Source of the DNA: Nitrospira sp.
GTDB lineage: Bacteria > Nitrospirota > Nitrospiria > Nitrospirales > Nitrospiraceae
Direction of reading: 5' to 3'
DNA: 64,000 nt
NCBI GenBank assembly: GCA_018242665.1
Contig: JAFEBL010000014.1
Coordinates: 1 to 64,000 of the forward strand
Shown: positions 5,610 to 62,585 of the stretch, piece by piece
Numbering within the stretch: position 1 is the stretch's first letter
How the letters are laid out: every line of letters starts with the position of its first letter
Program-made: the position numbers and the translations under genes
Notes under the pieces: generated by a model
What the model was told of the DNA's origin: nothing
The model's database searches: none
What the model saw: only the letters and a program-made list of their open reading frames with translations

Positions 5610-7459
5610 TCCTGTACCTCCTGCTCCGGAAGGGTCGTGCGGACCTCCGCCAACTCTCCGCCGAACATCTCTAACGCCTGCTTCACCAAGGGATGGGCCT
5701 TGGCCTGTTGTGTCAAGATCACCCGTTGCTCCTGTTCTTTCGCCACCCGCAGTTGCTTCATAGTGGGAGCAGCCCCTGCTTCCTGCTCCGCCTCGATCAC
5801 ACGTACTCGCAAGGCACTCCCGTAGAGACGTTCCCCCAAAGCCGCCAGGGCCTTGAGATTGTCCTCTTTCTCCAACATCGCTCGCGCCACCGTAGCCTGT
5901 TTTCCAAACCCCAGCGTGACGAGCCCACCCTCAATCTTCACGACACGCCCCATTTCCAGAAACGGCGCGATGTTGGGATGCTGGGCTGAGACTGCCTCCT
6001 GAAACTGCTCCCAATTCACCTCCACCGTCTCGGAAGCGGCAGTCGAAGCAGACGGGACGGCACCGTTTTGAGGGGCGGGGTCTGGTGCCGCCGGCGCGCT
6101 CACTGGCACGGCCGGAGCGGCAACGGGCGCAGGTGATGTGTCACGCGAACGAGAAGTCGAAACAGTGTTTGGAGCAGCTCCGCTCGACGAGGAGGCCTTT
6201 GGCAGAGGGGCACCGCTTGCCTTCGGTCCATCAGGCTGGGACGAGCTGGTCGAAGCCGTTCGCTCGCTCGAGCCCGGAGCCCGAGCAGGCGCGCCACGAT
6301 CAGGGGCCGGCTTCTCCTGTGGAGGTTTCGTCTCGGCGGATCGCGACGCCCCCTCACCAGACCGTAACAGCCGAGTGGCACGGACGGCAGCTGTCTCCAA
6401 CACGAACCGTGGATGCGTGCTCACCCGCAAACTATCTTCTGCGGAACTCCAAACCCGAAATAACTCTTGCAGCTGCTCGACGGTAAACCGTTCTGCATCA
6501 CGAGCCAGCTGCGCCAAATCGTCTTCGGTGGCCTCGACCAATCCGCGCAACTCAGGCCCAGCGGGCACCACCGCCGCGACCAGCATATTCCGCATGTACT
6601 CCACCAGATCGGCGCAGTAGGCACGCACATCGTGTCCTTGGTCCAGCAAGCCCGCAATGACGTGGAGGGCCTTCGCGCTATTCTGTTCGATCATCGCCTG
6701 GACGAGAGCCCGCACGCGTTCCTGGGGCACTGCGCCGAGCAACGTTTCGAGATCCTGATGGCGAATCGTCTTGCCGCCGAACGCGATCACCTGATCGAGC
6801 AGGCTGAGTCCGTCGCGCATGCTGCCCTCGCTGGCCCGCGCCAGCGCCATCAAGCTGCGATCTTCGATCGTGAGTCCATCTTGATTCGCGACATGCCGTA
6901 GCCGCTGCACGATCTCTGCCTTGGAGATGCGACGAAAATTGTAGTGTTGGCAACGTGAGAGAATGGTTGCGGGGATCTTGTGAATTTCCGTGGTAGCGAA
7001 AATGAACACCACATGCGCCGGGGGCTCCTCCAGCGTTTTCAACAGGGCGTTGAACGCCGAATTGGAGAGCATATGTACTTCGTCGATGATGTAGACACGG
7101 TACTGGCCACGAAACGGCGTGAATTTGACGTTCTCGCGAATCTCGCGCACGTCGTCCACGCTGGTGTTTGATGCCCCGTCGATTTCGACGACATCCACCG
7201 ACGTGCCCTGCGTAATTTCCTGACAGTTCACACAGGTGTTGCAGGGAGAACCGGTCGGACCCTGCTCGCAATTGAGCGCCTTCGCCAGGATGCGGGCCAC
7301 CGTCGTTTTTCCCACACCCCGCGTGCCCGAAAAGAGAAACGCGTGGGCGATCCGCTTGGTCGCGATCGAGTTCATCAGCGTCTGGACGACATGCGACTGT
7401 CCGATGACATCGTCGAACGTCCCGGGCCGGTATTTTCGTGCGGAGACTTGGTAATCCAT
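5606..7459 (-). CDS. dnaX: DNA polymerase III subunit gamma/tau
   Basis: The ATG at 7459 gives MDYQVSARKYRPGTFDDVIG, the standard DnaX N-terminus; the frame stays open 42 bases upstream. Motifs in order are the Walker A SGTRGVGKTT (about residue 45), the zinc-binding cysteines in CNTCVNC, Walker B YIIDEVHMLS, the SRC arginine-finger motif, and sensor 2. Domain III ends near residue 365. A Pro/Ala/Ser-rich linker of about 110 residues follows, then a C-terminal domain as in tau. The protein is the clamp-loader motor and holds the polymerase cores together. I saw no obvious slippery A-run that would make a short gamma form. It lies downstream of the SRP RNA gene and is coupled to ybaB. Confidence 0.96.
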   Translation of the reverse strand: MDYQVSARKYRPGTFDDVIGQSHVVQTLMNSIATKRIAHAFLFSGTRGVGKTTVARILAKALNCEQGPTGSPCNTCVNCQEITQGTSVDVVEIDGASNTSVDDVREIRENVKFTPFRGQYRVYIIDEVHMLSNSAFNALLKTLEEPPAHVVFIFATTEIHKIPATILSRCQHYNFRRISKAEIVQRLRHVANQDGLTIEDRSLMALARASEGSMRDGLSLLDQVIAFGGKTIRHQDLETLLGAVPQERVRALVQAMIEQNSAKALHVIAGLLDQGHDVRAYCADLVEYMRNMLVAAVVPAGPELRGLVEATEDDLAQLARDAERFTVEQLQELFRVWSSAEDSLRVSTHPRFVLETAAVRATRLLRSGEGASRSAETKPPQEKPAPDRGAPARAPGSSERTASTSSSQPDGPKASGAPLPKASSSSGAAPNTVSTSRSRDTSPAPVAAPAVPVSAPAAPDPAPQNGAVPSASTAASETVEVNWEQFQEAVSAQHPNIAPFLEMGRVVKIEGGLVTLGFGKQATVARAMLEKEDNLKALAALGERLYGSALRVRVIEAEQEAGAAPTMKQLRVAKEQEQRVILTQQAKAHPLVKQALEMFGGELAEVRTTLPEQEVQE

Positions 7460-7550
7460 GGGGCTGGATCGCTCCTCGTGAATCGGAATCCCGTCCATCA
7501 AGCGGACGCTTCACGAATGACGCATCACGAGAAACGTCATCAATGGAAGT

Positions 7551-7651
7551 GGGGCCAGGTGATCCTGCGGCACACAGAACGGACCGCTTACCGTTGCTTC
7601 CTTCCGGACCTGGCGGGGTTCACAGGGTTCTGTTGCACAGGGCCCGGCCCC
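7551..7651 (-). ncRNA. ffs: Signal recognition particle RNA, small bacterial type (4.5S)
   Basis: The minus strand carries CAGGTCCGGAAGGAAGCA, the conserved SRP domain IV apical loop that binds Ffh. The termini GGGGCC (7651-7646) and GGCCCC (7556-7551) pair to close a single long hairpin of about 101 nucleotides, with internal pairing continuing inward. This is the short form without an Alu domain. It lies between tRNA-Ser and dnaX in the same direction, a common bacterial arrangement. The exact ends are set by the terminal pairing and may be off by a few bases. Confidence 0.95.
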
Positions 7652-7756
7652 GAGGAGTTCGTGAAACCGACAGGGGTGATGAGGGCCGTGTGCGGTGCGA
7701 GGCTGCACCGTCATCAGAGCCGTTCCTCATTACGCCTACTGCCTCACAACTTCAAA

Positions 7757-7846
<90 letters not shown>

Positions 7847-7872
7847 GCGATCGGACGACTTCAAGGGTCGGC

Positions 7873-7901
7873 ATCTTATCACGCAGGTCGGTGGGCGGCA
7901 A
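7873..7901 (-). promoter_or_regulatory. Sigma-70 type promoter of tRNA-Ser
   Basis: On the minus strand TTGCCG (7896-7901) and TAAGAT (7873-7878) are 17 bases apart, and the tRNA begins about 27 bases further on. Confidence 0.5.
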
Positions 7902-48321: not shown

Positions 48322-48898
48322 AGGTAATGTCCTTATCTGGCTCATACTTTCGGAGGGTTGCCTGTAGCAACCTTAGCAAAGGGCAGGAGGTTGTCAAGAA
48401 CCAGGCCCGCGTTTCGTAGTATGCTTCAGCCCTCTATGGATGGTATCGTGAGTTGATCGTCGAACCCGTTTCACGGACGACTCCAGCAGAACTCACATGG
48501 CAACCAACATACGACGCATCAATACCCAAGTTCCTCGCAGGATAAAGGTACAGCCCGCCACGCCCATGGCGTCGGAGTGGGATATCAGCACAGGAACACC
48601 ACCGAACGGATTGCGAACCCCGTCCCACGCAATGCGTGCAGGCAAAAGCATAGGTGAGGGTTCGATCCGCGATACGGCGGAGCCGGCCGCCAACTCGAGA
48701 CCGGACCCGCATTCCGAGTTCACTCCGAGGATCATCTCATCCGCTACCTCCTAACTGCTGGACAGTATTCACTTTCTAGGACTTTCGGGACTAAAGGACT
48801 AGGTCCTTTGTGCGCTTGCTATTAAAAATAACCAGGGGCTAAGATTCCGACCTCTTAAACAGCCTTATAAGTCCTCAAACCCGTTGAGGTTCGTGTCA
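48322..48898. other. Long intergenic region between the OmpA and nuoA genes
   Basis: This 577-base gap holds the divergent control regions of the OmpA protein and the nuo operon. A minus-strand frame at 48493-48735 (80 codons) has AGGAGG about 11 bases before its ATG, but no family resemblance. Near 48784-48807 are repeated GGACT blocks including TTCGGGACTAAAG and a small AGGAC-TAG-GTCCT dyad. I found no convincing -35/-10 pair for nuoA. Confidence 0.5.
48784..48796 (+). promoter_or_regulatory. DosR-like half site upstream of nuoA
   Basis: TTCGGGACTAAAG matches the left part of the mycobacterial DosR/NarL-type box TTSGGGACTWWAGTCCCSAA at every position, but the right half diverges. It lies about 105 bases before the nuoA start. 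It could be a site for a NarL/LuxR-type regulator; this is inference from the motif alone. Confidence 0.3.
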
Positions 48899-49282
48899 AT
48901 GGCCGGTTCCGAGCTCCTCTTAGAGTACCTAAGCCGATATTTTCCCGTATTGGTCTTCGTCTTCGTGGCGCTTGCGTTCGGTGCCGGCACGTTGCTGATC
49001 AGTTATTTCGTTCAGCCCAAGTATCCGGAGCCTGAAAAGCTGTCTACCTATGAGTGCGGTTCTGAACCGTTTTCTGATGCCAGAATGCCATTTCCGGTGC
49101 GGTACTACATTTTCGCCATGCTGTTCGTCATTTTCGACGTCGAGGTCATCTTTCTGTATCCCTGGGCCATTGTCTTCAATAAGATCGGGCTCATCGGTCT
49201 GCTCGAAATGCTGATCTTTATCGGTCTTTTCCTCGTCGCCTATGTATACGCCTGGCGAAAAGGAGCGTTGGAATGGGACTAA
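48899..49282 (+). CDS. nuoA: NADH-quinone oxidoreductase subunit A
   Basis: The ATG at 48899 has GAGG nine bases upstream; a TTG at 48884 is less likely. The 127-residue protein has three membrane helices and the family signature [20 protein letters not shown] in the first loop, then [20 protein letters not shown] with the conserved acidic residues of helix 2. NuoA packs next to NuoH at the quinone site. It starts the cluster nuoABCDGIJKLMMN and overlaps nuoB by ten bases. Confidence 0.95.
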
Positions 49283-49800
49283 TTCAACTGGGGGGTCACG
49301 ACAAAGACGGCTCCCCGGACGTCATCACGCTCACGGTTGAAAAGGCCGTGAATTGGGCTAGAAAAGGGTCCTTATGGCCCATGACCTTCGGACTTGCCTG
49401 CTGCGCCATTGAAATGATTGCAGCCGTCTCGTCCCGGTATGACATGGACCGCTATGGAGCAGGGGTCTTCCGCGCCTCCCCCCGCCAATCAGACCTGATG
49501 ATCGTCGCGGGTACGGTCTGCCGACGGATGGCCCCGGTGATCCGCAAAATCTACGACCAGATGCCGGAACCGAAGTACGTCATTGCCATGGGGTCCTGTG
49601 CGACATCAGGCAATATTTACGATAGTTACAGCGTGGTGCAGGGAGTCGATCGCTTCGTACCGGTCGACATCTACGTGCCCGGGTGTCCTCCAACGCCAGA
49701 AGCCCTGTTCGACGGCATTCTGAAACTGCAGGAGCGCATCATGCAAAAGCGCGTGTTCCTCTCGCAACCGAAGGAAGTCAAAGACGCCCTGAAGGTCTAA
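49273..49800 (+). CDS. nuoB: NADH-quinone oxidoreductase subunit B
   Basis: The 175-residue protein carries the ligands of terminal cluster N2: the adjacent cysteines in GLACCAIEM, the Cys in AGTVCRRM, and the Cys in [27 protein letters not shown] is the family signature. NuoB passes electrons to quinone at the junction of the arm and membrane. AAGGAG precedes the ATG inside the end of nuoA. nuoC follows after 17 bases. Confidence 0.97.
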
Positions 49801-49817
49801 AGACGAGAATCTGGCCC

Positions 49818-50315
49818 ATGAATCACCTGGCACAACGAATCGAGGACACTTTTCCCGGCGCCTGCACGAAAGTGGTGGAATGGCGCGGAGACGTGGCGGT
49901 GACGGTCAATCGCGCGAATCTTCACGACGTGGCCTTGTTTCTCAAAAACGATCCTGCCATGCGATTCGACTATATCGTCCACGTCAGCTCGGTGGACTGG
50001 CCCGACGACGAAGAGCGGTTTGAAGTCGTCTACGAAGTCTATTCAATCCGTACACGGCAACGGATTCGTCTGAAAACGCGAGTGCCGGAATCGGACTGCA
50101 TCGTGGATTCCTTGACCGATGTCTGGAAAGGCGCCGACTTCATGGAGCGCGAAGTCTACGACATGATGGGCATCCGGTTCCGAAACCATCCCGACCTTCG
50201 CCGCATTCTCATGCCGGATGAATACGAGGAAGGCTATCCCCTGCGCAAAGATTTTCCACTCCGCGGAAGAGGCTGGCGCGATACGTTCGAATTTTTGGAT
50301 GAACCGACCCGGTAA
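49818..50315 (+). CDS. nuoC: NADH-quinone oxidoreductase subunit C
   Basis: The ATG at 49818 is the start fitting the 30-kDa subunit family; the frame is open upstream within nuoB. The 165-residue protein has FDYIVHVSSVDWPDDEERFE and the signature EREVYDMMGIRFRNHPDLRR, followed by the conserved DEYEEGYPLRKDFPL. It is a separate protein, not fused to NuoD as in E. coli. It belongs to the peripheral arm near the quinone site. Confidence 0.96.
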   Translation: MNHLAQRIEDTFPGACTKVVEWRGDVAVTVNRANLHDVALFLKNDPAMRFDYIVHVSSVDWPDDEERFEVVYEVYSIRTRQRIRLKTRVPESDCIVDSLTDVWKGADFMEREVYDMMGIRFRNHPDLRRILMPDEYEEGYPLRKDFPLRGRGWRDTFEFLDEPTR

Positions 50316-50344
50316 CGAAGGCCTGGTAGGACGACTGCACGATC

Positions 50345-51592
50345 ATGGCACAGTTCGAAGATCAACGTACCACCGTCTATAAAGTCGATCCGGAGCATCC
50401 GGAAAGCGAAACGCTCCCGACGCTCCGGACTGAAGAGCTTCTGCTCAATATGGGCCCCCAACACCCGAGCACCCACGGAGTGTTGAAGGTCATCCTCGAG
50501 CTGGAAGGCGAACGGCTGGTCAAGTCCACCCCGGTCATGGGATTTCTTCACCGCGGCGTGGAAAAGCTTGCGGAGGAGGGCACCTATCATCAATTCATCC
50601 CGCACACGGATCGGCTCGACTACGTGTGCGCGATGTATAACAACTTCGCCTACTGCCGGGCGGTAGAAAAATTGATGAACATCACAGTGCCGGATCGCGC
50701 AGAATATCTGCGTACGATCGTGGCAGAGATTCAGCGCATTATCGGCCATCAGTTCTGGCTGGGCACCCAGGCCCTCGACATCGGCGCGATGACTGTCTTT
50801 TTCTACTGTTTCCGGGACCGTGAAATTCTACTCGACTGGTTTGATGAACTGTGCGGCGCCCGACTTACCACCAGTTGGTATCGCATCGGGGGAGTGGAAC
50901 GGGACTTCACGCCGTCGTTGTTTGCCAAGCTAAAACAATTCCTCGACTACTTCCCGCCGAAAATCGATGAGTATGTGATTTTCTTGGAGAAGAACCGCAT
51001 CTGGCTGGCACGAACCAAGGGCGTGGCCGTGATCTCTGCCGAAGATGCGTTGAGCTTTGGCCTAAGCGGACCAACGCTGCGCGGCTCCGGCGTTGATTAC
51101 GATCTCCGCAAATATGAACCCTATTCCGCCTACCCGAAATGTGAATTCAACGTCCCCGTCGGCAAGAACGGCGACACCTACGACCGATACTGGATTCGGG
51201 TTCAAGAGCTCTATGAAAGCGTCAAGATCATCCGCCAATGCCTCGAGCAGATCCAGGATGGGCCAATCATGGCGGACGTGCCCAGTGTGACCCTACCTCC
51301 TAAGGAGCGGGTGTTCACCAACCTGGAATCCATGATTCAGCAGTTCAAGTTGTTTTCGCAGGGGTTCAATGCGCCTCCCGGAGAAATCTACTGCGGGACC
51401 GAGGCCCATAAAGGCGAGTTAGGCTTTTACATCGTCAGCACGGGCGGCGGAAAGCCGTACCGGCTGAAAATTCGCGCGCCCTCGTTTATCCATATGGGCG
51501 CGTTCGATCATATGTCGAAAGGCTACATGATCGCCGACGCCGTGACGATTTTCGGGACCTACGACATCGTCATGGGCGAATGTGACCGTTGA
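50345..51592 (+). CDS. nuoD: NADH-quinone oxidoreductase subunit D
   Basis: The 415-residue protein contains the quinone-site motif LNMGPQHPSTHGVLK and YVCAMYNNFAYCRAVEKL, then GARLTTSWYRIGGV and the C-terminal IVMGECDR, as in 49-kDa subunits. NuoD with NuoB forms the quinone-binding cavity. nuoG follows after a 76-base gap; nuoE and nuoF, which usually lie between, are absent. Confidence 0.97.
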   Translation: MAQFEDQRTTVYKVDPEHPESETLPTLRTEELLLNMGPQHPSTHGVLKVILELEGERLVKSTPVMGFLHRGVEKLAEEGTYHQFIPHTDRLDYVCAMYNNFAYCRAVEKLMNITVPDRAEYLRTIVAEIQRIIGHQFWLGTQALDIGAMTVFFYCFRDREILLDWFDELCGARLTTSWYRIGGVERDFTPSLFAKLKQFLDYFPPKIDEYVIFLEKNRIWLARTKGVAVISAEDALSFGLSGPTLRGSGVDYDLRKYEPYSAYPKCEFNVPVGKNGDTYDRYWIRVQELYESVKIIRQCLEQIQDGPIMADVPSVTLPPKERVFTNLESMIQQFKLFSQGFNAPPGEIYCGTEAHKGELGFYIVSTGGGKPYRLKIRAPSFIHMGAFDHMSKGYMIADAVTIFGTYDIVMGECDR

Positions 51593-51668
51593 CGCGTGGA
51601 GTGATCCGGGGAATGACGACTCTGTCGTTTATCGGATTGCCGAATCGATAAATCGTATTTGAGGAACC

Positions 51669-54377
51669 ATGGGCTTGAAACCAGCCACCAATCCCGACGT
51701 CGAAGCCGCGACCATCGAACTATCTATTGATGGACGAACGGTATCGGCAAAGGACGGCGTCTCGCTCTATGACGTCATCGCCAGCACGGGCAAGATTATT
51801 CCCGCCATGTGCTACCACTACACGTTTGATCCGTTCGGATCCTGCGGCATGTGTTTGGTGATGCAAGAAGGTAAGAAAGCTCCGGTTCGCTCCTGTACCG
51901 CAAAAGCCACAGCAGGCATGGTCATCCGAACCGATGGGGACGATCTGTTCGCGGCGCGCAAAAAGGCGGTTGAAAAACATCTGTCCGTCCATCCGTTAGA
52001 CTGCCCGGTCTGCGACGCCGACGGCCATTGCGAACTTCAGGACATGGCGTTCCAACATGGCGTCACGAATCTCGCCAGCGCCAAGCAAAAGTTTATCCCC
52101 GAAGACACGCGCAGCCTCGTGCTGGACTTCAACATGAATCGCTGCATCGCCTGCGCAGAATGCATCAACGTCTGCAAAGACGTGTTGATGATCGACGCGC
52201 TGCAATTCATGAAAAAGGGCGGCTTCAACCAAGTCGTGGCCAAAGGCGATCAGCCGCTGGCCTGTGAATTTTGCGGCGACTGTCTGGCGGTCTGCCCCGT
52301 CGGTGCCATCACGAACAAATACTCCAAGTATTTGTACAAACCGTGGCAAATGAAGAAGACCACGACGACATGTAACTATTGTGGTGACGGCTGCCAGCTG
52401 CACCTGGAGACCAAAGATACCGAGGTCGTCCGCGTGACGTCGCCGCTTTCCTGGAAGAATAAATGGGGGGATCGTTCTGAAACCGCCAAGGGCCATGGCG
52501 GGCTCTGCGTCCGAGGCCGATTCGGCTTTCAATACATCGACAGCGCGCAACGGCTGCGGCAACCGTTGGTTCGCACCGGCGACACCTTAACGGAAACGCC
52601 CTGGCTGGAGGCGATGCAAACGGTCATCGACCGACTCTCTGACATTCACCGTAAGCACGGCCCGGAGTCCATTGCCGGGCTCATCACCGCCCGTTGCACG
52701 AACGAAGAGCTGTATTTGTTCCAAAAGCTCATGCGGGCTGGTCTCAGAACCAACCAACTCGACAGTAGCGCGCGGTACGGTCACCTCAATTATGTGCACG
52801 CCGTGCGGCATGCGGTCGGCATCGGCCGCCCGCTGAATGATTGGGAGGATCTGACCAAAGCCAAAGCTGTCCTGGTCATCGGCTCGAACATCACCGAAAC
52901 CAATCCATTGACGGCTGTTCGCATTAAGGAAGCCATCCGCGTGTATCAGGCGCAAGTGATCGTTGTGGACTCGTCCACGACCAACATCGCACAACTCGCG
53001 TCCCATCCGCTTTTGGTGAAGCCGGGAACGGAAGCCCTGCTGATCGACGGACTCGTCAAGGCCGTCATCGAACAGGATCTTGTGGACGAGACCACCACAG
53101 CCAAATATCCCCAGGCATTTGCGGCCTTGAAGGACGCGGTCGCACAGGTGTCCCTCGAGCAGATATCCGGTCAGACGGGTATCTCAGTCGATCAGATCCG
53201 CGAAATCGCGACCATCTTTGCCGAAGCGCCGCGCGCGATTGCCCTGTGTGCTGAAGGAATCGTTCGTCGACCGAACGGATACCAAAATGTCCTCAAGCTG
53301 CTCGATCTCGCCTGGGTGACCGGGAAACTCGGACAACCGGGATCCGGCGTCACCACCGTCACCGAGGAAATCAATGAACAGGGTGCCATCGACATGGGTG
53401 TAGCCCCTGAGTTTTTGCCCGGGCAGGCCAGATTCGATGATCCTGGCGCGCGTGAACGATTCGGCAAGGCCTGGGAAGTGACCCTTCCCGCCATTGGAAC
53501 AGGCGCGAACCTCCTTGAAATTCTCGCGCGTATTCAGAGTGGCCAGATCAAAGCCCTCTATGTCATTGGAGAAAATCCATTGGCGACCTTGCCGGCTTCG
53601 ATGCAGGTGAGAAGCGCACTCGAGAAACTCCAGCTTTTGATCGTTCAGGATCCGTTCCTGACCGAGACCGCCCGTATGGCGCATGTCGTGCTGCCCGCAG
53701 CTACCTATGCCGAAAAGGACGGTACCTTTACCAGCCTTGAAGGGAAAGTCTTGCGCGTCCGCCAGGCCATCGATCATGTCGGAGAAAGCCTGCCGGATTG
53801 GCATATCATGACCGCGCTGGCCAATGGCCTTGGCTACGAATGGCCCTACCAATCGCCGCAGGATGTACAAAACGAAATCATGAGGCTGCTGCCAGGCTAT
53901 TACAATCTCGGCCAGCCGCGTCGGATTTCCCCATCGCCCGACTCCTATCTCTCGAATGGGTATACATCAGAGGTTGCAGACCGCTATCGCCGCCCGTCGG
54001 TACCAGGTTCTACAGGCACTGACGCTCGGCCATTTACCCTGATTATGGGGCAAGTGCTTTATCACTCCGGCAAAATGTCCACGCAGGCATCGGGGCTCAT
54101 CAACATCGAACCGAACAACCAGCGCATACGGATGAATCCGGCCGACGTGGAACAACTCGGCATCACTGAGCAATCCACTGTCCGCCTGACGTCTCGACAA
54201 GGCTCTGTGCAGGCTGGAGTGAAGGCCGACCCGGACATTCAGATCGGATCCTGCTTCTTCCCCGAACATTTCAACGAGCCGCCCGTGAAAGATCTGATGA
54301 CCACGGAGGCCGATCCAGTGACCGGAGTACCGTATTTCAAATCAACGCGCGTCACGATTGAAAAGGTTGGTGCGTAA
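51669..54377 (+). CDS. nuoG: NuoG-like iron-sulfur/molybdopterin-fold subunit (902 aa)
   Basis: GAGG precedes the ATG. Clusters read in order: [2Fe-2S] C48, C59, C62, C76; a His-Cys3 site H108, C112, C115, C121; two ferredoxin-type sets C159/162/165/169 and C199/202/205/209; and an N7-type set C235, C238, C242, C280. The molybdopterin-oxidoreductase fold follows. It keeps ARCTNEELYLFQKLMRAGLR as in formate dehydrogenases, but the catalytic Cys/Sec position in the next segment is lost (SARYGH). It should therefore act only as an electron wire. With no NuoE/NuoF, the electron donor at its outer end is uncertain; ferredoxin is a reasonable guess. Confidence 0.92.
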   Translation: MGLKPATNPDVEAATIELSIDGRTVSAKDGVSLYDVIASTGKIIPAMCYHYTFDPFGSCGMCLVMQEGKKAPVRSCTAKATAGMVIRTDGDDLFAARKKAVEKHLSVHPLDCPVCDADGHCELQDMAFQHGVTNLASAKQKFIPEDTRSLVLDFNMNRCIACAECINVCKDVLMIDALQFMKKGGFNQVVAKGDQPLACEFCGDCLAVCPVGAITNKYSKYLYKPWQMKKTTTTCNYCGDGCQLHLETKDTEVVRVTSPLSWKNKWGDRSETAKGHGGLCVRGRFGFQYIDSAQRLRQPLVRTGDTLTETPWLEAMQTVIDRLSDIHRKHGPESIAGLITARCTNEELYLFQKLMRAGLRTNQLDSSARYGHLNYVHAVRHAVGIGRPLNDWEDLTKAKAVLVIGSNITETNPLTAVRIKEAIRVYQAQVIVVDSSTTNIAQLASHPLLVKPGTEALLIDGLVKAVIEQDLVDETTTAKYPQAFAALKDAVAQVSLEQISGQTGISVDQIREIATIFAEAPRAIALCAEGIVRRPNGYQNVLKLLDLAWVTGKLGQPGSGVTTVTEEINEQGAIDMGVAPEFLPGQARFDDPGARERFGKAWEVTLPAIGTGANLLEILARIQSGQIKALYVIGENPLATLPASMQVRSALEKLQLLIVQDPFLTETARMAHVVLPAATYAEKDGTFTSLEGKVLRVRQAIDHVGESLPDWHIMTALANGLGYEWPYQSPQDVQNEIMRLLPGYYNLGQPRRISPSPDSYLSNGYTSEVADRYRRPSVPGSTGTDARPFTLIMGQVLYHSGKMSTQASGLINIEPNNQRIRMNPADVEQLGITEQSTVRLTSRQGSVQAGVKADPDIQIGSCFFPEHFNEPPVKDLMTTEADPVTGVPYFKSTRVTIEKVGA

Positions 54378-54421
54378 GAGTAAGCTCGTCCGTCTTTTTG
54401 TTGTCGTTAGAGGTGGTGGGA

Positions 54422-55009
54422 ATGAGTGTCGGGGCGTTAACCAAAAAAATTCTTCATGCCGCGTTGTTCTATGAAATTTGGGACGCCATGAAGGTAACCT
54501 TCAAACACATGTTTCACCGACCCATCACGTTCCAGTATCCCCGCGAACAACGGACGATTCCGGATGGTCACCGCGGCGCCCTCGGACTACTTCGTTATGC
54601 CGACGGTCGGGATCGTTGCGTAGGCTGCGATCTCTGCGAAGCGGCCTGTCCCTCGCGTTGCATCAAGGTCATTAGTCAGGAAGACCCCGAACGGCCTTTG
54701 CAACGATTCGCGAGCGAGTTCTATATCGATATCACCAAGTGCGTGTTTTGCGGCTATTGCGTGGAGGCCTGCCCGGTCAACGCGCTGGCCATGACGAAGA
54801 TGTACGAATTCTCCACTCACGACAAGCGCACCCTCCTGTTCGACAAGAAGCGCCTCTACGAGGTTGGCGCACGCCATCTCGACGACGCCAAAAAATATCT
54901 CTACACGCACAACCAAGAAAAAAATTCGGACGAGAGTCGGGAGTATCGTTATTACTTCCCGCAATCAGTTCTCAAACCTACACAGTCGCAACCCAAACAT
55001 TTGAGCTGA
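54422..55009 (+). CDS. nuoI: NADH-quinone oxidoreductase subunit I
   Basis: The ATG at 54422 follows GAGG; a TTG at 54398 is possible. The 195-residue protein has two ferredoxin-type clusters, CVGCDLCEAACPSRC and CVFCGYCVEACP, which are N6a and N6b. The N-terminal amphipathic region (FKHMFHRPITFQYP) lies on the membrane arm. It follows nuoG directly, with no room for nuoH between them. nuoJ starts 11 bases after its stop. Confidence 0.96.
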   Translation: MSVGALTKKILHAALFYEIWDAMKVTFKHMFHRPITFQYPREQRTIPDGHRGALGLLRYADGRDRCVGCDLCEAACPSRCIKVISQEDPERPLQRFASEFYIDITKCVFCGYCVEACPVNALAMTKMYEFSTHDKRTLLFDKKRLYEVGARHLDDAKKYLYTHNQEKNSDESREYRYYFPQSVLKPTQSQPKHLS

Positions 55010-55020
55010 ACCGTACCGTT

Positions 55021-55545
55021 ATGGCTTTCCTGTTTTTCGCGTATTTCGCAGTGGTCAGTATTGTCGCCGGCATCCTGACCGTGTCACTGAAAAACCCGGT
55101 CCAGTGTGGGCTCGCCCTCCTGGCCCTGCTCCTTCACGTCTCAGGCCTGTTCGTCATGCTGAACGCCGAATTTCTCTGGGCCGTACAGGTCATTGTCTAT
55201 GCCGGGGCGATCCTCGTGCTCTATCTCTTCGTCCTCATGTTGCTGAACCTCAAAACGGACGACCGCTATTTCCACGCCAGGACGCCCTATCTCCTGGCCC
55301 CCGCGGCCATCGGCTTGGCGTATCTTGTCTTCTTGTTGATCCGTTCTCCGTTCAGCGGATCCCGCGGCGACGCCTCAACAGCCGCAGTTCTTCTCAACGG
55401 AGATGCCCATGCGGTCGGCATTAAAATGTTCAGCGAGTATTTGCTGCAGTTTGAAATTATCGGTGTGTTTCTGACCGGAGCTATCGTCGGCGCGATTGTG
55501 CTGGCAAAAACGCCCAAGTCGATCGAAACGAGGCGGGACGCATGA
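55021..55545 (+). CDS. nuoJ: NADH-quinone oxidoreductase subunit J
   Basis: The ATG at 55021 gives MAFLFFAYFAVVSIVAGILT. The 174-residue protein has five hydrophobic helices. The third carries FLWAVQVIVYAGAILVLYLF, which includes the conserved pi-bulge tyrosine and glycine needed for coupling. A loop with GSRGDASTAA separates the last helices. It overlaps nuoK by four bases (ATGA), so they are coupled. Confidence 0.95.
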   Translation: MAFLFFAYFAVVSIVAGILTVSLKNPVQCGLALLALLLHVSGLFVMLNAEFLWAVQVIVYAGAILVLYLFVLMLLNLKTDDRYFHARTPYLLAPAAIGLAYLVFLLIRSPFSGSRGDASTAAVLLNGDAHAVGIKMFSEYLLQFEIIGVFLTGAIVGAIVLAKTPKSIETRRDA

Positions 55546-55844
55546 TTCCTTTATCCGCCTATGTCGTAGTCAGTGCCATTTTGTTTACAACAGGCCTGCT
55601 CGGGGTGCTCATCCGACGGAACTTCATTATCGTGCTCATGTCTGTCGAAATCATGCTGAATGCGGCCACGATCAACCTGGTCGCCTTCTCGCACTATCTC
55701 GAATCCATGCAAGGCCAAATCGTCGCCTTGTTCATGATCGCCATTGCCGCGGGAGAAGCGGCCATCGGGCTCGCGATCATCATTGTGGTGTTCCGCGGCA
55801 AAATTTCCACCAACGTCGACGAGATGAATCTCTTGAAGTGGTAA
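55542..55844 (+). CDS. nuoK: NADH-quinone oxidoreductase subunit K
   Basis: The 100-residue, three-helix protein has the two buried glutamates of the family: IVLMSVEIMLNAATINLVAF and IAIAAGEAAIGLAIIIVVFR. It forms part of the proton path between the quinone site and NuoN. It overlaps nuoJ by four bases and ends one base before the nuoL start. Confidence 0.96.
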   Translation: MIPLSAYVVVSAILFTTGLLGVLIRRNFIIVLMSVEIMLNAATINLVAFSHYLESMQGQIVALFMIAIAAGEAAIGLAIIIVVFRGKISTNVDEMNLLKW

Positions 55845-55845
55845 C

Positions 55846-57849
55846 GTGTCTGATTCTATTGATTTGATCGTCAAATTGATTCCCCTGTTTCCGCTGATGG
55901 CTGTCATTGTGAACGGCCTCTTCGGACACCGGTATTCCCACGATCTGGCCCATCGCTTCGCGTGGGGCTCGGTGCTGATGTCCTTCCTCTGCGTGTTGGC
56001 CGTCTTTACAGAAACTTTGCGCACCGGGGCGGCTCGGGAAGTCATCGCCTACAAATGGATCTTCGGCGGCGACCTCACCATCAATCTCGCCTATCTGATC
56101 GACCCCCTCACCTGCATCATGCTCTTGGTGATCACCGGTGTCGGCTTCCTCATTCATGTCTACTCCGTCGGCTACATGCATGGGGAGACGGGGTTCACGC
56201 GCTTCTTCGTATACATGAACCTCTTTATGGTCTCGATGCTTCTCCTGGTGATGGGCAACAACTACGTGGTGTTGTTCATCGGCTGGGAAGGAGTAGGACT
56301 CTGTTCGTACCTGCTCATCGGCTACTACTACGACAAGGTGTCGGCCGCAAAGGCCGCCACAAAAGCCTTTGTCGTCAATCGTATCGGCGATGCCGGGTTC
56401 CTCTTGGCCATTTTCCTCGTCTTCGTCAATTTCAAGACGCTGGATTACACCCAGGTCATGCAGAACGCCGCGCAGCTCTCCCCAGAGATGGCTACCGCCA
56501 TTGCGCTCTGCCTTCTCGTCGGCGCCGTCGGAAAATCCGCCCAGCTTCCCCTGTACACGTGGCTGCCGGATGCGATGGAAGGCCCAACCCCGGTCAGCGC
56601 GCTCATTCACGCAGCGACCATGGTCACCGCCGGCGTGTACATGATCGTCCGCAACCACGCCATTTTTGACCTGGCTCCCGTCGCCATGACCACCGTGGCC
56701 TGGATCGGGGGAGTGACGGCGCTGTTCGCGGCTACCATTGGGCTCGTCCAGACGGATATCAAGCGCGTGCTCGCCTATTCCACCGTGAGTCAGCTCGGCT
56801 ATATGTTCCTGGGCTGCGGACTCGGCGCGTACACCGCCGCCGTGTTCCACCTCATGACCCACGCATTCTTCAAAGCCTTGCTGTTTCTCTCAGCCGGATC
56901 TGTCATCCACGCCCTATCCGGGGAACAGGACATCCGGAAGATGGGAGCCCTGAAGTCCAAGATTCCTTGGACCCACACACTCTTTTTGATCGGCACCATC
57001 GCCATCGCGGGAATCCCACCCCTGGCGGGATTCTGGAGCAAGGACGAAATCATGGGCCATGCCTTCGTCCACCACCATTACCTCCTCTATGGAATGGCAG
57101 CGGTGGGTGCATTCCTGACGTCGTTTTATATGTTCCGCCTGACATATCTCACGTTTTACGGAACGTCCCGACTGGATCACCACACAGCCGAACATGTGCA
57201 TGAGTCACCGATGGTGATGATCGGACCGTTGATCGTTTTGGCGACTCTCTCCGTCATCGGTGGGTTCCCCGGCGTACCTCCGGAAAACGGTTGGTTCCAC
57301 CACTTCCTTCACTCCGTCGCCGGAGTGGCAGGAGAAGAACATGCGACGCCACCCGCCTTGATGTTTGGCCTCATGGGCACAGCAACGGTCATCGCGCTGC
57401 TCGGGTGGGGGCTCGCACACTATTTCTATAGCGGCCCTTCGACCGCGGCCACCGCCCTGGCCGACCGCATGCCCGGCGTGTACACCACGCTGCTGAACAA
57501 GTATTACGTCGACGAACTCTACGACACTCTGTTCGTCGAGCCCACCAAAAAGCTGGGCAGACTTTGCGATTGGTTCGATCGCACTATTATCGACGGGCTT
57601 GTTCGCAGCATCGACCGGGGTACGGATCTGAGCTCTGCGGCCATCACCTGGACCGAAAAACACGTCGTCTACGCCGGCCTCAATATTATCGGCTATGCGA
57701 ATCACCTCTTGGCGCGCTCATGGCGCCGCCTACAGACAGGCATGGTGCATCAATATGCCGCCATCATCGTGGCAGGCCTCTTCATTCTGGCTCACCTGAT
57801 TTTGTTGATTTGGACCGGAGGCGGATCCACAGGGTATTCCGCGCGCTGA
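55846..57849 (+). CDS. nuoL: NADH-quinone oxidoreductase subunit L, with extended C-terminal helix (667 aa)
   Basis: The GTG start lies directly after the nuoK stop. The antiporter-like core has the charged residues of a proton pump: Glu148 (GWEGVGLCSYL), Lys230 (VGKSAQLPLYTWLPDAM), the His of MTHAFFKALLFL and the Lys of WSKDEIM. E. coli NuoL is about 613 residues; the surplus lies mainly after residue 550, in the lateral amphipathic helix (DLSSAAITWTEKHVVYAGLN region). Such an insertion has been reported for complex I with a fourth pumping subunit, because the helix must reach further. Two nuoM genes follow. Confidence 0.95.
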   Translation: MSDSIDLIVKLIPLFPLMAVIVNGLFGHRYSHDLAHRFAWGSVLMSFLCVLAVFTETLRTGAAREVIAYKWIFGGDLTINLAYLIDPLTCIMLLVITGVGFLIHVYSVGYMHGETGFTRFFVYMNLFMVSMLLLVMGNNYVVLFIGWEGVGLCSYLLIGYYYDKVSAAKAATKAFVVNRIGDAGFLLAIFLVFVNFKTLDYTQVMQNAAQLSPEMATAIALCLLVGAVGKSAQLPLYTWLPDAMEGPTPVSALIHAATMVTAGVYMIVRNHAIFDLAPVAMTTVAWIGGVTALFAATIGLVQTDIKRVLAYSTVSQLGYMFLGCGLGAYTAAVFHLMTHAFFKALLFLSAGSVIHALSGEQDIRKMGALKSKIPWTHTLFLIGTIAIAGIPPLAGFWSKDEIMGHAFVHHHYLLYGMAAVGAFLTSFYMFRLTYLTFYGTSRLDHHTAEHVHESPMVMIGPLIVLATLSVIGGFPGVPPENGWFHHFLHSVAGVAGEEHATPPALMFGLMGTATVIALLGWGLAHYFYSGPSTAATALADRMPGVYTTLLNKYYVDELYDTLFVEPTKKLGRLCDWFDRTIIDGLVRSIDRGTDLSSAAITWTEKHVVYAGLNIIGYANHLLARSWRRLQTGMVHQYAAIIVAGLFILAHLILLIWTGGGSTGYSAR

Positions 57850-57872
57850 CGCAGCAGTAGTTTGGATGTACG

Positions 57873-59432
57873 ATGCTTGAAGAATTTAGTTTCGGATTTC
57901 CCATCCTGTCGTATCTGATCTTCCTTCCGTTGGTTGGAGCGGCCGTCCTCTGGCTGATCGACGACGAAGATCTCCTGAAGTCCACCACCTTGGGGATCAC
58001 CCTGGTGGAATTGGCGCTGGCTTGCCTCGTCTTAGTCCGCTTCGTGCCCGATTCCGCAGCCATGCAATTTGCAGAACATGCGCGATGGCTTCCCGCGCTC
58101 GGTATCGGCTATCACCTGGCCGTCGATGGCATCAGCGTGCTCTTCGTGGGGTTGACGGCCTTTCTGACGGTGTTGGTGGTGATTTACTCCTGGGACACGA
58201 TCCGTAACCAGGTACGCCTCTATTTCATGGCACTCCTGGCGTTGGAAACCACCACCATGGGCATTTTTGTGTCGATCGACCTGATCCTGTTTTTTGTGTT
58301 CTGGGAACTCATGCTCATCCCCAGCTACTTCCTGATCAAGCTCTGGGGAGGCGGAGCAGATCGCCACTATGCCGCTCTCAAATATGTCCTCTATACGCTC
58401 TTGGGCAGCGTGTTCATGCTGGTCGGCATCGCCTTGCTCGATATCAATTACCATCAGTGGGCCGTCACGCACCATCTAGACCACGTCTACTCCTTCGATC
58501 TCCTGGAGCTGTTATCCGTGCCGATTCCTCTCTCCCAGCAGATCCTGATCTTCTGGCTGATGTTCATGGGGTTCGCGTTCAAGGCGCCGGTCTTTCCCTT
58601 CCACACCTGGCTCCCGGATGCCTTAGTGGAGGGACCGATCGGCATGGCCGTCATGCTCGCGGGCATGAAGCTCGGCACTTACGGATTCCTTCGCTTCACC
58701 TTCCCATTAGTTCCTGAGGCTGCGAAAAGCGAAGGCGTGATCGCCATTGTAATGGTGCTAGCCCTCTGCGCCATTCTCTATGGGGCGGTGGTGGCGTTGG
58801 TCCAACTGGATTTCAAACGGCTGCTGGCCTTCAGCAGTATCAGCCACCTGGGTTTTGTCGTGGTTGGACTGTTTGCTCTGAATTTCCAAGGACTCCAAGG
58901 CAGCTTGCTGACCATGATCAACCTCGGGTTCAGCACGGCGGGACTCTTTTTCATGGCTGGCTTTTTGTCTACCCGGCAACAGAGTTCACATCTCGGTTCC
59001 TTCGGGGGATTCGCCAAACAAGCGCCGCTCTTAGCGACATTCCTACTGCTGATCGGCATGGCGTCCATCGGACTGCCCGGCACGAACGGCTTTGTTGGAG
59101 AATTCCTGATCCTGTTGGGAGCCTTCAAAGCCAAATGGTGGTTTGGCGCAGTCGCCGTCCTTGGCGTGATTTTCGGAGCGGCCTATTTCCTCTGGTACTA
59201 CGAGCGCTCGATGCTGGGTCCCGTTGGCAAACACGTATCTGCCGTCGTCAAGGACCTTCATATGCGCGAAATCACCATTGCCCTCTCGCTTTCGGTCATG
59301 ATTCTGTGGATCGGCCTCTACCCATCGCCCTTCCTGAGGATGATGAATGGCTCAATCCAGGCCCTTGTGGATAGGCTGGACCGTGCAAAAGTGGCCTCGG
59401 TTCACACTGTGACTCACGTGCCCACGAAGTAG
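57873..59432 (+). CDS. nuoM: NADH-quinone oxidoreductase subunit M, first copy (519 aa)
   Basis: The protein has about 14 membrane helices. Its pump residues are intact: Glu145 in FWELMLIPSYFLIKLWG, Lys237 in GFAFKAPVFPFHTWLPDAL, Lys266 in MLAGMKLGTYGFLRF, and the late Glu in NGFVGEFLILLGAF. KRLLAYSSISHLGFVVVGL is the family signature. It should be a normal proton-translocating subunit next to NuoL or the second NuoM. The second copy starts four bases after its stop. Confidence 0.96.
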   Translation: MLEEFSFGFPILSYLIFLPLVGAAVLWLIDDEDLLKSTTLGITLVELALACLVLVRFVPDSAAMQFAEHARWLPALGIGYHLAVDGISVLFVGLTAFLTVLVVIYSWDTIRNQVRLYFMALLALETTTMGIFVSIDLILFFVFWELMLIPSYFLIKLWGGGADRHYAALKYVLYTLLGSVFMLVGIALLDINYHQWAVTHHLDHVYSFDLLELLSVPIPLSQQILIFWLMFMGFAFKAPVFPFHTWLPDALVEGPIGMAVMLAGMKLGTYGFLRFTFPLVPEAAKSEGVIAIVMVLALCAILYGAVVALVQLDFKRLLAFSSISHLGFVVVGLFALNFQGLQGSLLTMINLGFSTAGLFFMAGFLSTRQQSSHLGSFGGFAKQAPLLATFLLLIGMASIGLPGTNGFVGEFLILLGAFKAKWWFGAVAVLGVIFGAAYFLWYYERSMLGPVGKHVSAVVKDLHMREITIALSLSVMILWIGLYPSPFLRMMNGSIQALVDRLDRAKVASVHTVTHVPTK

Positions 59433-59436
59433 GACC

Positions 59437-61092
59437 ATGGCTGATTACACACTGCTCATCATTCTCTTTGCGCCGTTTCTCGGGGCGCTCGCGCTCATCT
59501 TCGTCTCCAACCGCCAGGTCTCGCTGGTACGCGGCGTGGCGGCCGGCTCAGCCTTTATCACTCTGATCGCGTCCGTGTATCTCTTTTACGCCTACGACCC
59601 GGTGAAGGGCGGCTATCAGTTCATCCAACGGATTGAATGGTCGCGCCAACTAGGTATCTCCCTCCATCTGGGCGTGGACGGCATCGGCACCCCGCTGGTC
59701 CTCGCGTCGGGCATTTTGCTCTTCGCAGGCATTTTCGTGTCCTGGCATATCAAAGACCGGATGAAGGAGTTTTACATCTGGATCTTGATTCTCGCGGCGG
59801 CGACCATCGGCGTCTTCATGTCGCTCGATCTGTTTTTCCTCTACTTCTTCTACGAAATGTCAGTCATCCCCATGTATTTGCTCTTGGGCATGTGGGGAAG
59901 TCACACGAAGAAATATCTCGAAATGACCGACCCGGAAGGCTTGAAGCAGCGTGACTCCGTCGGGTTTATTTTCAACTTCGGCGCCAACAGTAAGGAATAT
60001 GCGGCCATGAAGCTGGTCCTGTTCCTCTCTGCGTTCGCCGTCGCCGCGCTCATGGGGATCTTGCTCATCTATAAGTTCTCCGGCCTCAATACCTTCGATA
60101 TTCTGGTGCTTCGTGAAAAGGCGCATTTCTCCGGCCCGTTGGCGACGCTCATCTGGCTGCTGATCTTTTTTGGATTTGCCTCCATCGCCCCGATCTGGCC
60201 GCTGCACTCCTGGTCTCCCGTTGGTCACGCAGCCGCACCGGCCGCAACCAGCATGTTGCACGCCGGCGTGCTCATGAAGCTGGGGCACTTCTCCATCATC
60301 CGGGTGGCGTTTGAAATCCTCCCTGAAACCACCCGCGAGCTCATGCCCATTGCCGCCGTCCTCTGCATTTTCAGCATCATTTACGGCGGCCTCGTCGCCT
60401 ACTATGCCAGGGACACCAAATACGTCATCGGGTACTCCAGTTCCAGCCACATGGGCTATGTCTTCCTGGGCATGGCGGCATTGGACTACATCAGTCTCAG
60501 CGGTGCCGTGATCTATATGTTCGCTCACGCCATGGCCACCGGCATGCTTTTCGCCATGGCCGGATGGGTCTATGACCAAACGCACACGCGGGACATCCCG
60601 TCACTCGGCGGCCTCTCCAACCGCATGCCGTTCATCTCCGCTGCCTTTGTGATCGGCTGCATGGCCTCCATCGGCATGCCAGGCACCGTGAATTTCATCG
60701 CGGAGGTCATGATCATCGTCGGCAGTTGGAACAAGTACCCATTCCAGGTCGTCATCGCCGTGCTCGGCATCGTTTTGACCATGGCCTATCTCTTCAAGAT
60801 GATGCGCGGTCTCTTCTACGGCTCGATGGCCGAGAAATATAGTCACTCCCACGACGCCGTCGCCGTGGTGGACCGCATGCCACTCCTCGTCATGATTATG
60901 GTCAGCGTGAGTTTTGGCATTTTCCCCGGACACCTCTATTCCGTCGTTCGCTCCGGCGTGGACCCGCTGATTGCACGCATCACGAAAGTGGTACCGGTCG
61001 CGGAGCAACCGACTCACATTCCACTTGCCAGTTCGCCCATTTCGCCGGTGTCGGCATCGCATGAGGCGATCGCGAAGGTGACCCCGCGATGA
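59437..61092 (+). CDS. nuoM: NADH-quinone oxidoreductase subunit M, second divergent copy (551 aa)
   Basis: This copy keeps Glu140 (FFYEMSVIPMYLLLGMWG), Lys281 (HAGVLMKLGHFSIIRVAF) and Glu423 (NFIAEVMIIVG). In the helix 7 motif, where the first copy has FAFKAPVFPFHTWLPDA, it reads FASIAPIWPLHSWSPVG, so the key lysine is isoleucine (Ile250). The family signature KRLLAYSS is also changed to KYVIGYSS. A loop of about 30 extra residues (157-190) follows helix 5. It may be an extra antiporter-like unit with an altered or reduced proton path. It overlaps nuoN by four bases, so it is translated with the cluster. Confidence 0.93.
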   Translation: MADYTLLIILFAPFLGALALIFVSNRQVSLVRGVAAGSAFITLIASVYLFYAYDPVKGGYQFIQRIEWSRQLGISLHLGVDGIGTPLVLASGILLFAGIFVSWHIKDRMKEFYIWILILAAATIGVFMSLDLFFLYFFYEMSVIPMYLLLGMWGSHTKKYLEMTDPEGLKQRDSVGFIFNFGANSKEYAAMKLVLFLSAFAVAALMGILLIYKFSGLNTFDILVLREKAHFSGPLATLIWLLIFFGFASIAPIWPLHSWSPVGHAAAPAATSMLHAGVLMKLGHFSIIRVAFEILPETTRELMPIAAVLCIFSIIYGGLVAYYARDTKYVIGYSSSSHMGYVFLGMAALDYISLSGAVIYMFAHAMATGMLFAMAGWVYDQTHTRDIPSLGGLSNRMPFISAAFVIGCMASIGMPGTVNFIAEVMIIVGSWNKYPFQVVIAVLGIVLTMAYLFKMMRGLFYGSMAEKYSHSHDAVAVVDRMPLLVMIMVSVSFGIFPGHLYSVVRSGVDPLIARITKVVPVAEQPTHIPLASSPISPVSASHEAIAKVTPR

Positions 61093-62585
61093 ATTTTTCC
61101 CTGACGCTTTCAGCCAGCGATCTCCTGCTCCTGCTGCCCGAGCTATTTCTCACTGTCTGGCTGTGCGTGGTGCTGGCCGTGGATTTTTCGTTCAAACGGA
61201 TCGTCCAAGAACAGCTGGCGTATCTGACCATCCTCGGGCTGATGATCACCCTGGCCTGCCTCGCATGGTTCGACATGACTGGGGTGACGGGAACGCTTTT
61301 CGCCAAGATGTTCGTGGTCGATCGCATGGCCATCTTCTTCAAGGTCATGATTCTGCTCGCGACGATTTTGGTGATTCTCCTCTCGATCGACTATGTGCAT
61401 CGGTTTTCGTTTTTCCGGGGGGAATACTACTTCCTCGTCGCCATGTCGGCGCTGGGGATGATGTTCATGGCCTCGGCCAACGATCTGCTTTCACTTTTCG
61501 TCACGCTGGAATTCGCGACCTTCGGCTTCTATGTCCTCGTGTCCTATCTCCGCGACGATATGGCATCGAATGAGGCGGGATTGAAATTCTTCATCCTCGG
61601 CGTCTTTGCGGCGGGATTGCTCGGCTATGGCATCAGCCTTGTCTATGGAGAAACCGGCAAACTGGTCTTTTCAGACATGACCGGCGCCAACCCGACGACC
61701 GGACTCGTGATCGGCTTCCTGCTCATTTTTGCGGCACTAGGCTTCAAAATCGGTGCAGTCCCATTCCATTCTTGGATTCCCGACACCTACCATGGCGCCC
61801 CGACGCCTGTGACGGCCTTCTTGTCGATCGCGCCGAAAGTCGCGGCCTTTGCGATCCTCCTGCGCCTGTTCCTCGTGGCGCTGGCGACCTTCAAACCGGC
61901 GTGGGCGTTGCTCATCGTGGCCGCCTCAATTCTCTCCATGACCTACGGCAACATTGTGGCCATTGCACAACGGAACATTAAGCGGCTACTGGCCTATTCC
62001 GGTATCGCTCAGGTCGGCAATGTGCTCATCGGCCTGGCTGCGGGCACCAAAATGGGTACGGACTCCATTTTGTTCTACCTGCTGACCTATCTCTTCGCGA
62101 ATCTCGGGGCCTTCGCCGTGATCATGGCAATCAGCAATTCAGTGGGCAGCGATGAGATCGATGACTACCGGGGATTGAATCGGCGCTCGCCGTTTCTGGC
62201 CTTTGCTATGCTGATTTTCCTGCTCTCGTTGGCCGGCGTACCCCCGCTTGCCGGCTTCATCGGAAAACTCTACATCTTTGTCGCGGCGATCAAGGAGGGC
62301 CTCTATATCCTCATCACCGTGGGACTCGTGAACATCGTCGTGTCGATGTACTACTATTTGATCGTCGTCAAGAAAATGTATATCAACGAGCCGCTCGATT
62401 CTTCTCCCATCAAGACCACGGGCCCCTTGCGGGCCGTGATTTATGTCGGTCTCGCCGGAACGCTGGTGATCGGCATCTATCCCCAGCCATTCCTTGACTG
62501 GGCCGTGTCCGCAACCCTGATGTTTTCCAATTTTCTCGGGCCTGCAGCATCCATTCTTCCTCCGACACCACCTGTCGGGGGCTAA
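61089..62585 (+). CDS. nuoN: NADH-quinone oxidoreductase subunit N
   Basis: The 498-residue protein has about 14 helices and the pump residues: Glu in FVTLEFATFGFYVLVSYL, Lys in GFKIGAVPFHSWIPDTYHG, Lys in SIAPKVAAFAILLR and Lys in GFIGKLYIFVAA. KRLLAYSGIAQVGNVLIGLA is the family signature. Its ATG overlaps the stop of the second nuoM (ATGA). It is the last gene of the cluster. Confidence 0.96.
   Translation: MNFSLTLSASDLLLLLPELFLTVWLCVVLAVDFSFKRIVQEQLAYLTILGLMITLACLAWFDMTGVTGTLFAKMFVVDRMAIFFKVMILLATILVILLSIDYVHRFSFFRGEYYFLVAMSALGMMFMASANDLLSLFVTLEFATFGFYVLVSYLRDDMASNEAGLKFFILGVFAAGLLGYGISLVYGETGKLVFSDMTGANPTTGLVIGFLLIFAALGFKIGAVPFHSWIPDTYHGAPTPVTAFLSIAPKVAAFAILLRLFLVALATFKPAWALLIVAASILSMTYGNIVAIAQRNIKRLLAYSGIAQVGNVLIGLAAGTKMGTDSILFYLLTYLFANLGAFAVIMAISNSVGSDEIDDYRGLNRRSPFLAFAMLIFLLSLAGVPPLAGFIGKLYIFVAAIKEGLYILITVGLVNIVVSMYYYLIVVKKMYINEPLDSSPIKTTGPLRAVIYVGLAGTLVIGIYPQPFLDWAVSATLMFSNFLGPAASILPPTPPVGG

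Follow-up and report, generated by a model that had tools for sequence, protein, structure and literature searches.

In mechanisms of complex I, each subunit has a Glu/Lys pair that acts as a relay or switch. The lysine of this pair, on TM7, has been called "absolutely conserved" and is regarded as essential in antiporter-like subunits, and the same mechanism has been extended to complexes with four such subunits (PMC7419157). In P. denitrificans ND4/Nqo13, the K232Q replacement abolishes catalysis (PMC9802314), and mutants of K234 in NuoM lose function (PMC3046159). The closest described relatives of the locus examined here are the clade 3 2M complexes I. As relayed from Chadwick et al. 2018 in PMC6606698 and PMC9040806, these have tandem nuoM genes, a longer NuoL lateral helix and an enlarged NuoG, and are without nuoE, nuoF and nuoH. 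These papers describe 2M complexes as having an extra pumping subunit. Lengthening of the lateral helix by about 26 residues serves as a 2M criterion. In N. moscoviensis, expression of the 2M cluster exceeds the median, and ferredoxin reduction has been proposed as the role of the Nitrospira complex (PMC6606698).

The window analyzed here is a stretch of 64,000 nucleotides from Nitrospira sp., and it carries on its forward strand a nuo cluster whose order, by profile matches, is nuoA-B-C-D-G-I-J-K-L-M1-M2-N. The genes nuoA, B, C, D, an enlarged G, I, J, and K (48884..55844; Pfam matches) are followed by nuoL (55846..57849; TIGR01974), nuoM1 (57873..59432; TIGR01972, 520 bits), nuoM2 (59437..61092; TIGR01972, 410.6 bits), and nuoN (61089..62585; TIGR01770). 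Both nuoM genes belong to this one cluster and score above the TIGR01972 cut-off of 263.8, with nuoM2, which encodes 551 residues, lying directly 3' of nuoM1. Measured between anchor positions, the lateral helix of NuoL is 77 residues long, 25 more than the 52 found in this genome's canonical complex. We found no nuoE, nuoF or nuoH in the 2M cluster of the window (48884-62585). In its nuoM pair, its helix and its gene content, the cluster agrees with the clade 3 2M complex I described for Nitrospira (PMC6606698). Another contig of the same genome, C3, carries a further nuo cluster of the canonical kind. NuoH matches in this genome are found on contigs C3 and C7 only: the best one lies in the canonical cluster (C3:114125-115129 of G000), and the other in a hydrogenase-4-like cluster on C7. 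Because the 2M cluster is without nuoH and the best NuoH belongs to the canonical cluster, the 2M complex may share that NuoH. The enlarged NuoG (51669-54377) has molybdopterin and dinucleotide-binding domains, and it scores higher against formate dehydrogenase alpha (500.8 bits) than against NuoG (371.1 bits), with both scores below the cut-off. Two other Nitrospirota loci (L049 and L050) encode a NuoL with a lateral helix of 2M length (77 residues) and have a single nuoM in the stretch fetched.

The two NuoM proteins of the window differ at the TM7 site. In NuoM1, this site is Lys237 of the motif FAFKAP (codon AAG, 58581-58583), while in NuoM2 it is Ile250 of the motif FASIAP (codon ATC, 60184..60186). 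Both residues fall in the alignment column of K234 of E. coli NuoM (MG1655 sequence), which confirms the residues and coordinates reported in an earlier note on this DNA. That note had also described two nearby motifs as changed, and both are indeed altered in NuoM2: WLPDA becomes WSPVG, and K-R-L-L-A-F-S-S becomes K-Y-V-I-G-Y-S-S, so that Tyr replaces the Arg that follows the TM10 lysine. The note was mistaken, however, in giving the latter motif of NuoM1 as ending in AYSS rather than AFSS. Its statement that the TM7 lysine is central to proton translocation agrees with the loss of function in the K232Q and K234 mutants. The column is that of the essential lysine of canonical ND4/NuoM, and the loss does bear, as the note argued, on the claim that 2M complexes move an extra proton. 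In an AlphaFold model built from the four paralogues of the window, a helix break at residues 249-255 fits a broken TM7, at a pLDDT of 53 that leaves side chains unreadable. A Foldseek search is consistent with a NuoM/ND4 fold (TM about 0.6). Residues 155-183 of NuoM2 form an insertion after TM5 (SHTKKYLEMTDPEGLKQRDSVGFIFNF) that is conserved across the Nitrospirota and absent from other NuoM2. In the NuoM1 of Nitrospirales (57873-59432 in the window), two TM8 residues are missing just before the central lysine, at about residue 265; the same gap occurs in the tandem pair of the Chloroflexota-set locus L186, but not in L046, a Manganitrophaceae-like locus.

To place this substitution in a wider context, we surveyed three phyla, namely the Nitrospirota, Chloroflexota, and Acidobacteriota. 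Of 148 Nitrospirota genomes, 39 gave a high-scoring NuoM2, and tandem nuoM pairs from the other two phyla were located by family search and their loci fetched. At 32 of these Chloroflexota and Acidobacteriota loci, the second NuoM is much closer to the NuoM2 of the window than the first NuoM is. Across 72 NuoM2 rows from tandem-nuoM clusters, the TM7 column holds Ile in 40 (the Nitrospirota rows, two of which are the window gene), Leu in 31, Thr in one, and Lys in none. By comparison, Lys is present in 76/76 comparison rows, which consist of 69 NuoM1 (including a few duplicates of one gene), six canonical Nitrospirota proteins, and E. coli NuoM. The same pattern was seen in eight additional Chloroflexota 2M genomes. 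Purifying selection on NuoM2 is strong: within the genus, its dN/dS is 0.022-0.031, which resembles the values for NuoM1 and NuoN; synonymous sites are close to saturated in this comparison. Taken with these dN/dS values, the counts indicate that the loss of the lysine in NuoM2 is not local and is beyond chance. We give practically no credence to the idea that Ile250 is an error of sequencing or alignment, or that nuoM2 is a copy decaying into a pseudogene. The same state recurs in 39 Nitrospirota genomes and two more phyla with reading frames nearly all intact, a dN/dS of 0.02-0.03 does not suggest decay, and the 72-row alignment refutes this reading. Viral contigs yielded no relative, and a plasmid search returned matches only at about 35% identity or less, which is the canonical level. 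A different kind of tandem was seen in one genome of the Chloroflexota set (G348; loci L186 and L208), where two NuoM1-like proteins, both with the TM7 Lys, are followed by an MrpD-like protein; one of the NuoM1-like proteins has Val for the TM5 Glu, and the NuoL C-terminus is very long.

When the Chloroflexota were searched with a NuoM from a genome assigned to Thermoflexus, the lysine-less type proved able to stand alone as well. In 18 genomes, a lysine-less NuoM is encoded directly between NuoL and NuoN and is the only nuoM of that cluster, a status that holds per cluster rather than per genome, as a second canonical nuo cluster is possible elsewhere in these genomes. All 18 have Leu at the TM7 site, Lys on TM8, and Glu on TM12; on TM5, 14 have Glu and the other four Asp. 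The NuoL lateral helix is 52 residues long in 18/18 of these clusters, the length of a three-subunit complex, as opposed to the 77 residues of 2M complexes. With a helix of this length and a single NuoM, the lysine-less NuoM should contact NuoN and NuoL directly. One such cluster, L207, encodes nuoB, C, D, H, I, J, L, M, and N, and nuoE, F, and G were not identified among the genes tested there. Because the lysine-less type is the only nuoM in 18 clusters with a lateral helix of normal length, it is not a decayed spare, and the dN/dS values together with these clusters rule out spare-copy decay. In quick trees, which contain some long branches, NuoM2 and the sole lysine-less NuoM are set apart together by a branch with SH-aLRT support of 95-100, and a single change accounts for the lysine loss in this group. 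By sequence, they form a distinct NuoM clade in which the TM7 lysine was lost once and Ile or Leu became fixed, in 2M complexes as well as in some Chloroflexota clusters with a sole NuoM.

Except for the Lys that TM7 contributes to the Glu/Lys pair, the NuoM2 of the window has the features of the NuoM/ND4 family: it matches the family model and keeps the TM5 Glu, the TM8 Lys, and the TM12 Glu. These are Glu140 (59854..59856; E. coli NuoM E144), Lys281 (60277..60279; K265), and Glu423 (60703..60705; E407). Both glutamates are found in 72/72 NuoM2 rows, and the lysine in 70/72, with the two remaining rows having a Lys one residue earlier. When NuoM2 was aligned with other 2M clusters, as the earlier note had proposed, none of the sampled NuoM2 had the lysine or a displaced lysine near the site, and a scan of 90 rows (72 2M NuoM2 and 18 single-M proteins) turned up no Lys or Arg within 12 residues of this position. 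NuoM2 has further lost a Glu on TM4, the Arg that follows the TM10 lysine, and the Asp of LPDA, which is Val or Thr in many cases. One gained residue is His275 on TM8 (60259..60261), which is NuoL/MrpA-like and aligns with the His that E. coli NuoL has on TM8. This His is found in 40/40 Nitrospirota NuoM2, where NuoM1 has Leu, in 34/37 Chloroflexota 2M proteins, and in 14/18 of the sole types, but in none of the seven Acidobacteriota NuoM2, and was for that reason rejected as a universal substitute for the lysine. A basic residue on TM13 (K/R454) that is enriched in NuoM2 was also rejected, as it is present in only 15/25 Chloroflexota and an Arg is found in NuoL and NuoN as well.

These residues bear on two opposing ideas of what NuoM2 does. 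It might translocate a proton like the other antiporter-like subunits, with the TM7 Lys being dispensable, hydration and the axis residues including the TM8 His substituting for it, and an extra proton being pumped. We consider this a real but minority prospect. All of the remaining axis residues are kept, the spacing of six between the TM8 His and Lys is that of MrpA H273/K279, and E. coli HycC has Leu at the site and is active as L208K (PMC5061711). Nonetheless, the TM7 Lys is essential in canonical ND4/NuoM, the absence of the His from 7/7 Acidobacteriota NuoM2 argues against a general substitute, and pumping by FHL is itself unsettled (PMC9474812). Alternatively, NuoM2 might be mainly a spacer or electrostatic insulator that makes the arm longer and adds no pumped proton, in which case the equation of 2M with one more proton would be wrong. 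The loss of the lysine, the LPDA Asp, the TM4 Glu, and the Arg that follows the TM10 lysine would fit such a role. We find it rather unlikely, as it would be hard to explain why, across three phyla, the TM5 and TM12 glutamates are strictly conserved and the TM8 Lys nearly so, and a spacer would not be expected to serve as the only NuoM. The earlier note's suggestion that NuoM2 may not pump by the usual path thus holds insofar as the key lysine is lost, but a failure to pump is not established, given the retained axis residues, the strong constraint, and the clusters in which this type is the sole NuoM.

From the constraint and the retained axis residues, we infer that NuoM2 remains a component of the membrane arm, where it is coupled to the redox reaction. 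The reading we favor, to which we assign a little under an even chance, is that NuoM2 stays in the charge relay by sitting beside NuoN, its Glu140 using Lys393 on NuoN TM12 (codon 62265-62267) as partner in place of a Lys/Glu switch of its own. Gene order (L-M1-M2-N), the sole-NuoM complexes, and a charge argument suggest this placement: in the alternative order, Glu140 would face the TM12 Glu of NuoM1, which offers no lysine. The domino model includes hops from NuoM TM8 to TM7 and from NuoM TM5 to NuoN TM12 (PMC10212512). In the proposed scheme, the otherwise unpaired Glu140 would take up Lys393, and charge and protons would pass along the central axis, from NuoN to NuoM1 or the reverse, through Glu140, Lys281, central histidines, and Glu423 of NuoM2. 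The NuoN of the window keeps Glu141, Lys220, and Lys250 in addition to Lys393, and the TM12 Lys of NuoN is kept in 70/70 2M rows and 18/18 single-M rows. The reading is weakened by the canonical K234 and K232 mutants, which are dead despite this lysine: the NuoN Lys is not by itself enough to rescue canonical NuoM, and other changes in NuoM2 would have to compensate. The broader proposition, that a widespread NuoM clade works without the TM7 Lys by drawing its charge partner from NuoN, both as the fourth subunit of 2M complexes and as the only NuoM of Chloroflexota clusters, is more tentative, with a probability appreciably below even. We think it improbable that the lysine-less NuoM instead alters the energetics of the complex, for example through a different pKa ladder or ion, to suit low-potential carriers and reverse electron transport to ferredoxin. 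The absence of nuoE, F, and H and the enlarged NuoG of the window cluster, the proposed role in ferredoxin reduction (PMC6606698), and the failure to identify nuoE/F/G among the L207 genes tested are consistent with this, in a comparison of gene content that covers these two clusters.

If a partner from NuoN does serve NuoM2, then a subunit's own ion pair, which underlies both the wave and domino models, would not be universally required in complex I. On its sequence, the NuoM2 family does not fit the description of the TM7 Lys as "absolutely conserved" (PMC7419157). The lysine-less NuoM is a natural, conserved family that occurs in series with normal subunits, including in single-NuoM complexes of otherwise canonical layout, and it offers a natural test of how complex I moves protons. 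The family thereby opens two questions to testing. One is the purpose of the ion pair; the other is whether a proton is added by every antiporter-like subunit, which the 2M extra-proton claim takes for granted. The missing lysine of NuoM2 may already have been noted; we found no mention of it in the papers covered here that relay Chadwick et al. 2018.

Compared to canonical NuoM, ND4, and Nqo13, the NuoM2 clade shares the fold family, the TM5 Glu, the TM8 Lys, the TM12 Glu, and the central His, but has Ile or Leu for the TM7 Lys, has often lost the LPDA Asp, and in most cases has gained the TM8 His. MrpA and NuoL also have this His, and MrpA, like NuoM2, has a Lys six residues later. Unlike NuoM2, however, MrpA and NuoL keep the TM7 lysine, and NuoM2 has Glu rather than Lys on TM12 and is a NuoM by sequence. 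The five-subunit Complex_I_3 of Ca. Manganitrophaceae (PMC9040806) differs from the 2M complex of the window in that two MrpD-like subunits replace NuoL. In a locus like it, L046 (two MrpD-like subunits, M1, M2, and N), the NuoM2 site is likewise Ile, and the TM7 lysine site of the second MrpD-like subunit (6020-7885) is Asn. E. coli HycC of formate hydrogenlyase shares the residue pattern of NuoM2, with Glu on TM5, Leu on TM7, Lys on TM8, and Glu on TM12; it is part of a hydrogenase with one antiporter-like subunit. Its Leu208 at the TM7 site was already known (PMC9474812, PMC5061711), and placing a Lys there (L208K) had no clear effect (PMC5061711). We considered and rejected a common origin for the two losses, as the tree groups HycC with HyfB and NuoM2 with NuoM, amounting to two changes. 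Since HyfB has the Lys, the loss in HycC is independent of that in NuoM2, and HycC had already provided a separate example, in an enzyme other than complex I, of a missing TM7 lysine.
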